Assembly: GCA_030583865.1 (NCBI GenBank)
Contig: CP129479.1
Location: forward strand, 1,314,744-1,378,743
Reading direction: 5' to 3'
Source: Thermodesulfobacteriota bacterium
Lineage (GTDB): Bacteria; Desulfobacterota; GWC2-55-46
Length of the DNA: 64,000 bases
Under the pieces are notes generated by a model. The model made no database searches and was not told where the DNA came from. It saw nothing but the letters and a program-made list of their open reading frames with translations. Position 1 is the stretch's first letter. Every line of letters begins with the position of its first letter. Below, piece after piece: positions 5,617-13,885 of this stretch. A program made the position numbers and the translations under genes.

Positions 5617-5835
5617 ATGCCAGAAATAACCGGCCATATGACAACCGGAGAGGTCACTACGAGATGGCCCTCGACTAAAGAGGTCTTCTCGAAACACTTC
5701 GGCACCGGCTGCTTCACCTGCCCGGCTTTCGGGAGCGAGCCCATCTCAATGGCCTGCGCAATGCACTCGACCGATGTGAATATGTTCGTATCCGAGCTCA
5801 TCGAGGCTGCAAAAAAGGACGAGGCCAAGGTATAG
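5617..5835 (+). CDS. DUF1858 domain protein (CxxC redox-type)
   Basis: This 72-aa soluble protein fits the DUF1858 family of small proteins typical of anaerobes. The frame starts at an ATG behind a strong ribosome site (AAGGAGG). The family signature is a CxxC pair in GCFTCPAF (C32 and C35) plus a third cysteine (about 47). These suggest a disulfide or metal role, possibly redox sensing. The function is not established. A sigma-70-like promoter lies upstream and a clear terminator downstream, so it is probably monocistronic. It neighbours a sigma-54 module whose activator also has clustered cysteines. Confidence 0.85.
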   Translation: MPEITGHMTTGEVTTRWPSTKEVFSKHFGTGCFTCPAFGSEPISMACAMHSTDVNMFVSELIEAAKKDEAKV

Positions 5836-5863
5836 GTCTTTTAACTATCCGAACGACCAATCC

Positions 5864-5894
5864 GGGGCGGCAATCATATGCCGCCCCTTTTTTT
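5864..5894 (+). terminator. Rho-independent terminator
   Basis: GGGGCGGCA and TGCCGCCCC form a 9-bp stem with a 6-nt loop, followed by eight T residues, just after the DUF1858 stop codon. Confidence 0.9.
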
Positions 5895-6037
5895 GTCAAG
5901 CCGTGTAAGCGGTTTTCCTCAGAATCCTCAATCGACGGTTCTGCTCCATTAACTACTGACACTTTATCTGTCAAAAAATACCCGCAAGGGGTATCTTTTT
6001 CCTTCCAAGGCAAATTCATGTTTCAAAATTAAAATAC

Positions 6038-6053
6038 GTTTCATCTATGGAAC
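6038..6053. promoter_or_regulatory. Palindromic activator site 1 (GTTTCA-N4-TGAAAC type)
   Basis: GTTTCATCTATGGAAC has one mismatch to the palindrome GTTTCA-N4-TGAAAC. It lies about 146 bp before the -24 element of the sigma-54 promoter at 6199, a normal enhancer distance. A further half site, TGTTTCA, lies at 6019-6025. Confidence 0.6.
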
Positions 6054-6105
6054 GTTCAGTTAATTACTTGATTTTATAAGCTAAAGTGCTGATGCGCTGA
6101 AATAG

Positions 6106-6121
6106 GTTTCATTTGTGAAAC
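6106..6121. promoter_or_regulatory. Palindromic activator site 2 (perfect GTTTCA-N4-TGAAAC)
   Basis: GTTTCATTTGTGAAAC is a perfect 6-bp inverted repeat with a 4-bp spacer, about 78 bp before the sigma-54 promoter. It has the same spacing as the sites at 6038 and 6629, which argues for one dimeric binding protein. The adjacent Fis-type activator (6700-8091) is the obvious candidate. Confidence 0.65.
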
Positions 6122-6198
6122 GCTTACGTATTTACTGTTTTTCCAGCCATCATTGAAAAGAGTAATTATTTTAAGGTGTTATGGGTGGAGCAGTGCTT

Positions 6199-6214
6199 TG
6201 GCACGAGTTTTGTA
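6199..6214 (+). promoter_or_regulatory. Sigma-54 (-24/-12) promoter
   Basis: TGGCACGAGTTTTGTA matches the TGGCAC-N5-TTGCA consensus except for T instead of C in the -12 GC. It lies 43 bp before the first tiny membrane-protein gene. Two palindromes stand upstream at enhancer distance, and a sigma-54 activator gene follows downstream. Confidence 0.7.
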
Positions 6215-6256
6215 TATATGAAAGAATTGACACGAACTCCAGAAAAGGAGCATGAG

Positions 6257-6358
6257 ATGAGAACCAAGTACCTTGCCCTTGATTATTCAGCCTTCGTCCT
6301 CGGACTTATCGCAATCACGCTCCTCTCACTCGAGCGCGTGGGCAGGGGGCTTTTTTAA
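6257..6358 (+). CDS. 33-aa single-pass membrane microprotein
   Basis: The frame reads MRTKYLALDYSAFVLGLIAI and then a hydrophobic stretch to LSLERVGRGLF. It has a short basic N-terminus, one predicted transmembrane helix (about residues 10-25) and a basic tail. AAAAGGAG lies just before the ATG, and the gene is about 30 bp after the predicted sigma-54 start site. An in-frame upstream ATG at 6176 would start before the promoter and is less likely. I do not recognise a family. Size and topology recall small stabilising subunits of membrane complexes, but that is only analogy. Confidence 0.6.
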   Translation: MRTKYLALDYSAFVLGLIAITLLSLERVGRGLF

Positions 6359-6404
6359 GGTTTTCAGGCGCGGTATGCGCCTCGGGTAGTTAAAGGAGGG
6401 CGAA

Positions 6405-6482
6405 ATGAAGAAGGCATTCATAGCCGATGTGATCGGCTTCACGATACTGATTGGAATAGCGATGACAATAGCGCTCAGGTAG
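6405..6482 (+). CDS. 25-aa single-pass membrane microprotein
   Basis: The frame has an excellent ribosome site (AAAGGAGG, 5 nt before the ATG) and reads MKKAFIADVIGFTILIGIAM and then TIALR. It is almost entirely one hydrophobic helix with lysines at the N-terminus and arginine at the end. It lies 46 bp after the 33-aa microprotein gene in the same direction, with no terminator between, so both are probably on one sigma-54-dependent transcript. The strong ribosome site supports translation. The function is unknown. Confidence 0.6.
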   Translation: MKKAFIADVIGFTILIGIAMTIALR

Positions 6483-6564
6483 TGTGTTGCGAGACTTTTA
6501 AAAAGAGTATACCGAACCGGGATATCCCTTCAAATTCCGCACATTTCCCGCCAAATCCTTCCAA

Positions 6565-6606
6565 CCCTGCCAGGCAATACCGGTAAGCCTGGCAGGGATT
6601 TTTTCT
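6565..6606 (+). terminator. Rho-independent terminator
   Basis: CCCTGCCAGGC and GCCTGGCAGGG form a perfect 11-bp stem with an 11-nt loop, followed by ATTTTTTCTT. It ends the microprotein transcript before the activator's own promoter. Confidence 0.9.
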
Positions 6607-6628
6607 TCTGTTTCAAAATCGTGACAAT

Positions 6629-6644
6629 GTTTCTCTCCTGAAAC
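6629..6644. promoter_or_regulatory. Palindromic site 3, upstream of the activator gene
   Basis: GTTTCTCTCCTGAAAC matches GTTTCA-N4-TGAAAC with one mismatch and ends 8 bp before the -35 of the activator's own promoter. A half site, TGAAAC, overlaps the -35 itself (6654-6659). The position suggests autoregulation. Confidence 0.6.
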
Positions 6645-6652
6645 AAAACTGA

Positions 6653-6681
6653 TTGAAACTTCTGTATCGAAATCGTATAAT
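6653..6681 (+). promoter_or_regulatory. Sigma-70 promoter of the activator gene
   Basis: TTGAAA (6653-6658) and TATAAT (6676-6681) are 17 bp apart and lie 19 bp before the ATG at 6700. The palindrome at 6629-6644 sits just upstream. Confidence 0.7.
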
Positions 6682-6699
6682 CCATTCAGGAGAAAAGGA

Positions 6700-8091
6700 A
6701 TGGAGACCGAGAAATTAAGGCTTTCCGGCAATAACGAAGCCGTCCACAAGTACATAGAGCTGAATAGCGACGCCATCCTTAACAGCATCGCCGACGGCGT
6801 GGTCGTCATAGGCCTTAATCACGAGATACTCTTCATAAACAGGGCGGCCAGGGAGATATTCGGGAAGGTCGGGCTCAAGGACTTCTCAAGGGGCGGCAAA
6901 TGCAGCGGCATGATCGGGCACACGAGCTGCGCCTTCGACTGCGTCATAAACAGGACCATTAAGACCGGCGAGCACCTCTACAACTACGAGGTGACGCTCG
7001 GCAGGGGCGACAGCAAGGTCACTCTCAGCATAAATACGGCCCTCTTGAAGGATGAGGACGGCAAGATAATAGGCGGCCTCGAGATATTCAGGGACACCTC
7101 GCTTATAAAGGAGCTCAGGGACGAGATAAAGGGCAGATACTCCTTTGAGAACATAATCGGCAAGAACTACCGGATGCACGAGGTCTACGAGCTCTTGAAA
7201 GAGGTCGCGCCGACGAGGGCGACAGTCCTCATAGAGGGCGAGACCGGCACGGGCAAGGAGCTTATTGCGAACGCCATCCACCACAACTCCCCGAGGTGCG
7301 GCGGGCCTTTCGTTAAGGTAAACTGCGCGGCCCTCTCCGAGGGCATACTCGAAAGCGAGCTCTTCGGCCACGTGAAGGGAGCGTTCACGGGCGCCATAGC
7401 CGACAAGCCCGGGCGTTTCGAGCTTGCGGACAACGGCACCATCTTCCTCGACGAGGTCGGAGACATAACCCCGCACACGCAGGTGAAGCTCCTTCGCGTT
7501 TTGCAGGAAGGGGAGTTCGAGCGGGTGGGCGGCACGAAGACCATCAAGGTGGACGTGCGGGTTGTCACCGCGACCAACAAGGACCTGAAGGCCCTCGTCG
7601 AAAAGGGCGAGTTCAGGGAGGACCTCTACTACCGCCTGAAGGTCGTGCCCGTGCGCCTTCCGGCCCTCAGGGAGCGCAAAGACGACATACCGCTCCTTGT
7701 CAAATATTTCATCGGGAAGTTCAATCGCGAGATGGGGCGGGAGACGGGCATGGAGGTCCGCCACGTCTCTCCTTCCGCGATGGAGCTGTTGATGGAGTAC
7801 GGCTATCCGGGCAATATCCGCGAGCTTGAGCACATAATCGAGCACGCGTTCGTGAGATGCCAGGGCAACACCATAAACCCCGAGCACCTGCCGAGGGACC
7901 TCCATGCGCGGGGGCTCGTTGACAAGGCCATGAGCACCGACGAGCCCATGAAGGCGCTCGAACGCGAGGTGATTATTAAGGCCCTCGACGAGACCGGCTG
8001 GAAATACAACGATTGCGCCCGGAAGCTCAAGATGAGCAGGACGACGCTCTGGAGGAGGATAAAGGAGCTGGGCATAGAAAAACCAGCTTGA
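6700..8091 (+). CDS. Sigma-54-dependent transcriptional activator, PAS-AAA+-Fis
   Basis: This 463-aa cytoplasmic activator has a PAS sensor (about residues 20-130), a sigma-54 AAA+ domain and a C-terminal Fis-type HTH. The AAA+ domain shows Walker A GETGTGKE (about 180), the sigma-54 contact loop GAFTGA (about 227-232), FLDEVGD and the ATNKDL/arginine-finger region. The HTH ends [20 protein letters not shown]. The PAS domain has clustered cysteines, C68, C77 and C81, in [14 protein letters not shown], suggesting a metal-, cluster- or thiol-based redox signal. It has its own sigma-70-like promoter and a nearby palindrome. The likely target is the sigma-54 promoter at 6199 that drives two tiny membrane proteins. 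Effector and regulon are inferred. Confidence 0.93.
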
Positions 8092-12173: not shown

Positions 12174-13379
12174 TCAATGCATTAGCTGATTCAACTTCTC
12201 CTCCTCCCTGGCCGTAATCCCCTCTACTTTGCCTAAACTTTGCCCATTGGCCTCTTTGCCCAGGGCGGCGCGCTCCTTGTGGTAGTCAGAGACCTTCCTC
12301 GAAGCCCTCTTGAGGTCCTCCTCATTCACGATGTTGTACCTCTCGAAGACGCTCCTGGTCTTATGACCGGATATGAGCATGGCAACCCTCTCGGGCACGC
12401 CGGCGCGGACCATGTTCCGGACGGCCGTCCTCCGGAGATCGTGGAATATCCGGGTAGGGACCTCCTTACCCGGGTCCCATAGCCTTATCTTCTTTTCGCT
12501 CCTCTCCCAGGCCTTCTTGCAAGCTGTGTCCCAGGACTTGTCAAAGCGCCCCAGAGGCCCTCCACGGTCGTCAAAGAGCACCCAGGGGGTATCAGGCCAG
12601 TCCGCGTCCTTGAGGGCCTTTTGGAAGCGTATGGCGGCCAGCAGCTCGCCTTCCATGTAGACCACCCTGGCCTCGTCGTTTTTCGTGGACCCGGCATTGA
12701 GGGTTATCTTTCCCTCGACAAGGTCCACCTGGTCCCATACAAGGCCCCTCAGCTCGCCCAGGCGCATGCCCGTGTGATAGGCCATGATTATGAGCGGCTT
12801 GAGGCGAGGGGGCAGGGCCTCCTTTAGCGCCTGGTATTCCTCGAACTCGAAAAAGCCGGAGCGCGGAGGGCCTTCCTTCAGGTGAGGGATGTACGGGACC
12901 TGTTTCACCTTGGGAGGGGTCTGCCTGGCTCCCAGGTGGAACATGCGCTTGAGGGCCGAGAGCTCCCTGTTGATGGTGCCGTTCTCGACCTTGTCCTCCT
13001 GCTGCCGTTTGAGAATGTAGATGTTTATCCTGTCCGTCGTTATCTCCGGGACGCGCACGCCCCCGAAGGTTTCCTTCAGGGTCCTTACGCTCAGGCCGGC
13101 GCGATCCTCTGTCTTCTTCCCGTTCACGCGGTAGTCGTTCAGGAGGTCCTCGGCGAGTTCGTCAAAGAGTATCCGCTCGATCCGCAGGCCCTGGAAGCGG
13201 CCCTCTGCAACCTCTCCCTCCCTGGACTTGAGCTTCCTCTCGGCGTCGGTCTTTCTCTTTGAACCCGAGCTCTCACGAAAGGGCTTGCCGTTCCGGTAGT
13301 ACTTGATCCACCAGACCTGGCTTTCGACGTAGTTGTCGTTCTTGTCCCTGTACTTGGGCCGGTAGACGCTTCCCATCAT
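12174..13379 (-). CDS. int: Tyrosine-type site-specific integrase
   Basis: This integrase of about 401 aa should recombine the 45-bp att repeats. The N-terminus has an arm-binding-type segment (YRPKYRDKNDNY...VWWIKYYRNGKPF), followed by a core-binding SAM-like region and the catalytic domain. Catalytic residues are visible in HTGMRLGELRGL (Arg), HDLRRT (His and Arg), GHKTRS (His) and FERYN (nucleophile Tyr). The start at 13379 overlaps the stop of the upstream gene in GGAGGATGATG, implying translational coupling. A longer frame to 13523 would overlap that gene throughout. It lies 16 bp from tRNA-Arg, pointing out of the element. Confidence 0.95.
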   Translation of the reverse strand: MMGSVYRPKYRDKNDNYVESQVWWIKYYRNGKPFRESSGSKRKTDAERKLKSREGEVAEGRFQGLRIERILFDELAEDLLNDYRVNGKKTEDRAGLSVRTLKETFGGVRVPEITTDRINIYILKRQQEDKVENGTINRELSALKRMFHLGARQTPPKVKQVPYIPHLKEGPPRSGFFEFEEYQALKEALPPRLKPLIIMAYHTGMRLGELRGLVWDQVDLVEGKITLNAGSTKNDEARVVYMEGELLAAIRFQKALKDADWPDTPWVLFDDRGGPLGRFDKSWDTACKKAWERSEKKIRLWDPGKEVPTRIFHDLRRTAVRNMVRAGVPERVAMLISGHKTRSVFERYNIVNEEDLKRASRKVSDYHKERAALGKEANGQSLGKVEGITAREEEKLNQLMH

Positions 13380-13885
13380 CCTCCTCCTTTCTCGTTTTTT
13401 TCCTTCCTGTACCCCGTTATATTGTCCCTCAAACAGTTGAAATAAGTATCCACTGTGAGGATCGCAGCGTTGACCTTGTTCTCCGGGGCTTCCCTTATTA
13501 CTCTCAGGTATCTTTCCAGGCATGCTTTTTCTTTGTCTGAAAGCCCGCGAATGTGCTTAAGCCTTCTAACGCCGCGCATCGAAGCTATATGCAGCACCTC
13601 GGCCATGTATCCCTCCAATAAAGAATTCAAGGCCTCTTCTGTTAAGCCCCTGCTCGGGCCTTCATCGGCCTCGAAGATATCCGCGAACTCCTTTGCGCTG
13701 ACCGGAGTCCATATCTGCCACCGCCCGGACGGTATCCAGTTTTCCATCAACATCAGGGCGCCGGAGAGGTTGTGCTCGCAGTAGCAGACTATGAGATCCT
13801 CCTGTGCGATTATCGGCTTCTGAAGGCATTCGGTGCACAGCCCCTCTGCCGGCGGCAGGGTCCAGCTTTCCTCGATCTCTCTCAA
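13376..13885 (-). CDS. Element protein with N-terminal Cys cluster, unknown
   Basis: This 169-aa protein has an N-terminal metal-binding-like cluster: CTECLQKP, then CYCEH (about residues 17-38). An alpha-helical remainder has several basic stretches (MRGVRRLKHIRGLS). The Cys pattern could hold one zinc ion. Its stop overlaps the integrase start by 4 nt, so the two are expressed together. I do not recognise the family. A regulatory or recombination-accessory role would suit the position but is only inference. Confidence 0.7.
   Translation of the reverse strand: MREIEESWTLPPAEGLCTECLQKPIIAQEDLIVCYCEHNLSGALMLMENWIPSGRWQIWTPVSAKEFADIFEADEGPSRGLTEEALNSLLEGYMAEVLHIASMRGVRRLKHIRGLSDKEKACLERYLRVIREAPENKVNAAILTVDTYFNCLRDNITGYRKEKNEKGGG

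Follow-up and report, generated by a model that had tools for sequence, protein, structure and literature searches.

Organization of the locus

The window, that is, the whole 64-kb stretch of DNA that was analysed, contains a compact regulatory locus in which a sigma-54 promoter, two very small reading frames and an intrinsic terminator are followed by the gene for a sigma-54 activator. The original prediction had placed a sigma-54-driven operon here, and each element that it named, namely the promoter at 6199, the palindromes at 6038 and 6106, both frames and the terminator at 6565, was recovered at its position; the sigma-54 activator that it gave as the next gene is likewise present. The features are listed below (strand given where one applies).

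5617–5835, + strand: gene for a DUF1858 / hybrid-cluster-protein-associated redox disulfide domain protein, 72 aa; upstream neighbour that has a terminator of its own
6038–6053: enhancer site 1, GTTTCATCTATGGAAC; 9/10 match to GTTTCN6GAAAC
6106–6121: enhancer site 2, GTTTCATTTGTGAAAC; 10/10 match
6199–6213, + strand: sigma-54 −24/−12 promoter, predicted +1 at 6225; conserved in orthologous loci
6257–6358, + strand: micro-ORF A, 33 aa, one hydrophobic helix; Shine-Dalgarno AAGGAG
6405–6482, + strand: micro-ORF B, 25 aa, one hydrophobic helix; Shine-Dalgarno AAAGGAGG
6500–6606, + strand: conserved 3′ RNA, a single strand rich in C and poor in G, then the terminator; from sequence conservation and an RNA model
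6565–6604, + strand: intrinsic terminator, 11-bp stem and T-run; from covariation
6629–6644: enhancer-like site 3, 10/10 match; just upstream of the activator's own promoter
6653–6681, + strand: sigma-70 promoter of the activator, TTGAAA-17-TATAAT; 11/12 consensus matches
6700–8091, + strand: sigma-54 activator, 463 aa, with a PAS domain, an AAA+ domain carrying GAFTGA and a Fis-type HTH (Pfam)

The product of the upstream neighbour matches Pfam PF08984 (E 1.3e-9) and, just under the cutoff, TIGR03980 (E 7e-11). Its gene lies outside the transcript and is syntenic upstream in many relatives. A few kb downstream of the locus, an ORF resembling a tyrosine recombinase and the small ORFs that follow it (12174–13523 of the window) suggest an integrated element.

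Conservation across relatives

A search of 59 genomes recovered close orthologues of the activator in about 20 of them. At the loci of the window's family, a matching promoter, between one and four micro-ORFs equipped with ribosome sites, and a terminator lie ahead of the activator gene. The number and sequence of the micro-ORFs differ among genera, the extreme being a single divergent micro-ORF in G009, and the architecture is kept in another family of the order (G036), there with a 55-codon frame. Relatives that keep the activator also keep the promoter and the micro-ORFs, as expected if the original prediction holds. Because promoter, micro-ORFs and terminator recur in front of the activator orthologues of the window's family, we consider the operon real and, on this comparative evidence, the segment 6199–6606 to be almost certainly a genuine sigma-54 transcription unit; a pure sequence artefact is ruled out by conservation. 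The initial reading of the operon was supported but incomplete, as it had overlooked the conserved 3′ RNA, the third palindrome, the sigma-70 promoter of the activator gene, the fact that micro-ORFs vary in number, and the link to nitrite and NO genes.

Promoter and enhancer sites

The sigma-54 promoter (TTGGCACGAGTTTTGTAT) carries GG at 6200–6201 and GT at 6212–6213. The −12 element is thus GT and not the canonical GC, and relatives show TTG[T/A/G] there too. The pattern TTGGCACGN4TTG[T/A], including the GG and G spacing, is conserved across the orthologous loci (in G014 and G029 the promoter deviates from the strict pattern) and has a single exact match in the 2.75-Mb genome, which also encodes sigma-54.

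Enhancer sites 1 and 2 are located 161 and 93 bp before the promoter, and these positions are kept in relatives at about −160 and −92, respectively. The enhancer sites have the form TGTTTCA-N4-TGAAACA and stand at about −178, −160 and −92 in the operons of the window's family. Palindromes matching at 9/10 or better occur three times in the 64 kb, always at the operon locus, and the exact motif has two copies in the 2.75-Mb genome; since both of these copies fall at the operon locus, the activator looks dedicated. A counterpart of site 3 is found about 70–120 bp upstream of the start of the activator match in most relatives, and its placement suggests that the activator probably regulates its own gene. 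When the exact motif was searched across the 59 genomes, its off-locus matches were at background level, so that no wider regulon can be claimed from the exact motif; a wider regulon with degenerate sites may exist.

The activator and its signal

By analogy, the system would work most like the NorR regulon. NorR, the activator of norVW in Escherichia coli, is also a sigma-54 activator with AAA+ and HTH domains, it likewise uses several enhancer sites, three in number, and it adjoins a flavodiiron gene, as do relatives of the present activator (PMC2941729). The enhancer sequence is different, however, and the target here is a micro-protein operon. Assignment of the activator to NorR itself was rejected because the sensor differs, being a GAF non-haem iron domain in NorR and a PAS domain with a C/H/C/C set in the present protein; the score against the NorR model (340.6 bits) is also under the cutoff of 476.

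An alignment of eleven orthologues revealed that residues C68, H74, C77 and C81 of the PAS domain are invariant. The PAS profile is nearest by sequence to CitA/DcuS-type PAS domains. The AlphaFold model of this part displays a PAS-like order of helices and strands at a modest pLDDT of 63 with a poorly modelled Cys region, and it was given no weight in judging whether a metal site is present. The activator gene is split over two reading frames in G003 and interrupted by an internal TGA in G001; both disruptions may be assembly errors.

Distant orthologues came to light when named genomes were scanned with the PAS portion of the activator, and indications of the signal come from neighbouring genes. 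In three loci (L064–L066), the activator follows a gene for a copper nitrite reductase-like protein (nirK) and two cytochrome c genes, with the gene for a haem-copper oxidase subunit lying divergent to them in L065. In two further loci (L069 and L071), a divergent sigma-54 promoter leads to a 27-codon micro-ORF and then to a gene whose flavodiiron product is a relative of flavorubredoxin, the anaerobic NO reductase, a relationship that was tested in L069 and assigned by resemblance in L071. A 27-codon micro-ORF also adjoins the activator in L048, where a tRNA-like sequence and not a flavodiiron gene comes next. Enhancers at about −178, −160 and −92 are present before the nirK promoters of L064 and L065; L066 has two of these sites. 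The same geometry, which is also that of the operons in the window's family, is seen before the micro-ORF promoters of L069, L071 and L048. Sites of this kind have a background of 0.34 per kb at 8/10.

Because this spacing recurs upstream of nirK and flavodiiron operons beside distant orthologues, nitric oxide or nitrite is the probable signal; we rate a signal of this type as moderately likely. Phylogenetic profiles against COX1-family and flavodiiron genes did not discriminate, as both are too common to correlate, so that what ties the activator to NO are the gene neighbours and enhancers of other genomes, not of this one. The MAGs that contain L064, L065 and L066 are labelled Nitrospirae or Nitrospinota and carry close orthologues of the activator, which may reflect either horizontal transfer or labelling.

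The alternative that survives best leaves the operon otherwise as described but assigns the activator to another signal, such as general redox state, oxygen or a metabolite, the NO genes beside distant orthologues being incidental. It is in line with the resemblance of the PAS profile to CitA/DcuS-type domains, with the modest confidence of the PAS model and with an operon that here contains no NO enzyme; what it accommodates poorly is that neighbourhoods unrelated to one another share this enhancer geometry, before nirK in some and next to flavodiiron genes in others. We regard another signal as a serious possibility, although a doubtful one.

Two families of micro-proteins

Frames A (MRTKYLALDYSAFVLGLIAITLLSLERVGRGLF) and B (MKKAFIADVIGFTILIGIAMTIALR) are the only ones on either strand of the whole window that pass a filter demanding an ATG start, a length of 20–45 codons, a hydrophobic stretch of 17 residues and a match to the Shine-Dalgarno sequence. 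Among the four closest genomes, dN/dS of frame A was 0.07–0.27 in five of six close pairs and 0.61 in the sixth, and that of frame B was 0.04–0.27 in close pairs, values that derive from few substitutions. Ka/Ks had been proposed as a check of the original prediction, and the outcome, mostly below 0.3 for both frames, agrees with it. To judge from these ratios, both frames are under purifying selection.

HMM searches of Pfam, NCBIfam and PHROGs gave no match for either frame, and the earlier statement that no matching family was known holds for these three collections; both micro-protein families are new. Members of family A share a conserved acid, a glycine and often a GRG end. Across the 59 genomes, the family was detected at 18 loci (E <1e-7), all at this operon type, and nothing comparable was found outside the operon; because most of the sequences were already in the query alignment, it is this absence elsewhere that is the informative part of the search. 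Family B is characterized by a conserved E, often accompanied by H, in the helix. It is present at further loci beyond the activator operon and, in a 395-genome sample of the phylum, was seen only in the window's family. Homology between the two families was considered and is unsupported (profile comparison probability 5%).

Some of the additional occurrences of family B have distinctive surroundings. In two genomes, G002 and G007, a family B micro-ORF lies just upstream of the genes for a histidine kinase and a sigma-54 response regulator, at a distance from the PAS activator; the loci concerned are L084 (6319–6405) and L085 (9809–9901). On the minus strand at L091 (6030–7203; G007:C9), outside the activator locus, family B forms a tandem array of four micro-ORFs, with a DEAD-box helicase gene on one side and a DNA polymerase IV-like gene on the other.

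In being shorter than 40 aa and consisting of a single hydrophobic helix, the predicted products resemble CydX, a subunit of a respiratory oxidase, and YohP, which is stress-linked (PMC4325964, PMC12719787). They differ from these proteins in that frames A and B have no family match and that the operon contains no oxidase gene.

A conserved C-rich 3′ RNA

The segment 6506–6610 (105 nt) is 97% identical to its counterpart in each of G001 and G005, compared with 85–92% for frames A and B and 61–70% for the upstream region; in the fourth genome of the genus, the 3′ RNA reaches 85% against 73–75%, and this within-genus conservation rests on the four close genomes. Upstream of the terminator, the RNA is a weakly structured strand. 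Its last 45 nt before the terminator contain 17–23 C and 1–5 G in 15 of 15 family loci, and a C excess as large as in the 3′ RNA is seen in 0.17% of the window's 50-nt stretches. Motifs of the type CCTCC, CTCC or CCTTCC occur in most, not all, of the 15 loci, and the C-rich, G-poor bias is absent from G036. The terminator stem displays compensatory changes in nine of its 11 pairs over the 15 loci.

A covariance model (R1) detected the 3′ RNA at operon loci, including those of G005 and G009 and the second copy in G018, on which it had not been trained; outside the operon it gave weak matches only. Those that were examined (G040, E 1e-6; G002; G015; G055) are located within or next to coding regions, look like chance matches or ordinary terminators, and were rejected. 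The G040 match (L123, G040:C88) occurs in a genome that has no close activator orthologue. A search of 5800–6800 against Rfam returned a chance snoRNA match alone, with no match to a RoxS/RsaE covariance model, and an antisense target search with one 16-nt piece of the C-rich core yielded the sequence itself and one match with two mismatches, no better than the control.

Two known systems suggest what such a tail might do. RoxS/RsaE of Bacillus and Staphylococcus is NO-induced and contains C-rich regions that are proposed to pair with Shine-Dalgarno sequences (PMC4409812); the C-rich regions and, if the proposed signal is right, the NO-linked control have counterparts here, but RoxS/RsaE is an independent sRNA under ResDE/SrrAB, whereas the present RNA forms the 3′ end of a sigma-54-controlled operon that codes for proteins. 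In the Vibrio VcdRP system, one transcript provides both a 29-aa protein and a conserved pairing segment that needs consecutive cytosines (PMC8672173). This system differs in its control by CRP and in that VcdP binds citrate synthase, and it is likened here by layout. We rate a regulatory activity of the 3′ RNA as about as likely as not; its C-richness could also be a Rho-loading or stability feature.

The latter option belongs to an explanation in which the transcript serves its peptides only: these would be stress-induced membrane micro-proteins like CydX and YohP, and the C-rich tail would be a conserved UTR or Rho/terminator context. Purifying selection on the frames, the extra micro-ORFs of relatives (up to four) and the occurrence of family B outside the activator operon all fit such a role. 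Against this, conservation within the genus is higher in the tail than in the frames, and a similar tail composition precedes an already strong terminator in 15 of 15 family operons. We consider the explanation unlikely, but one that must be reckoned with.

The opposite emphasis, with the 3′ sRNA as the main product and the micro-ORFs minor or decaying, gains from the peak of conservation in the 3′ RNA and from a precedent in Desulfovibrio vulgaris, where sigma-54 activators have been assigned to several ncRNAs, several of them adjoining the regulator gene (PMC4641369). Those activators are mostly two-component response regulators, and the likeness is one of description. Such a role is improbable given that the frames are under purifying selection, keep their ribosome sites and are multiplied in relatives, and that L069 and L071 keep the micro-ORF in genomes (G058 and G048) without a match to the RNA model. 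Least probable by our assessment is a type I toxin–antitoxin system with the micro-proteins as membrane-depolarising peptides, for which peptide size, hydrophobicity and the four tandem family B frames of G007 would speak, but which fits badly with a dedicated sigma-54 activator, a polycistronic layout with good ribosome sites and conserved acidic and His positions in the helices; a check for an antisense RNA found only weak (9/12) promoter-like matches on the minus strand at 6468, 6533 and 6627.

Proposed mechanism and implications

As a whole, the locus is best explained by a dedicated, NorR-like activator of the nitrosative-stress response that controls a dual-output transcript, an explanation to which we assign about an even chance of being correct. 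The activator would be produced from its own sigma-70 promoter, and its Cys/His-bearing PAS domain would respond to a signal of nitrosative or redox type, nitric oxide or a nitrite-derived species being the likeliest. It would then bind two or three TGTTTCA-N4-TGAAACA sites and remodel sigma-54 polymerase at 6199, giving rise to one short RNA. The first output would be the two one-helix micro-proteins, probably residing in the inner membrane and conceivably modulating a respiratory or membrane process. The second would be the C-rich 3′ RNA, which would probably act as a riboregulator by base-pairing with Shine-Dalgarno regions. In its most specific form, a nitrosative-stress transcript that combines variable micro-proteins of new families with a trans-acting C-rich 3′ UTR RNA under a PAS-type, NO-responsive activator, the proposal is offered tentatively. 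The levels of confidence given for this explanation and for its rivals overlap where these are not mutually exclusive.

A whole regulatory operon of this kind is one that gene callers skip, and ordinary annotation would leave the stretch blank. What it holds are two new families of micro-proteins together with a conserved 3′ RNA, and the PAS-type activator to which these are tied is NorR-like in layout and not in its sensor. The transcript would add a sigma-54 case to the few believed to combine the roles of mRNA for very small proteins and of regulatory RNA, and the locus makes it testable how uncultivated deltaproteobacterial lineages deal with nitric oxide.
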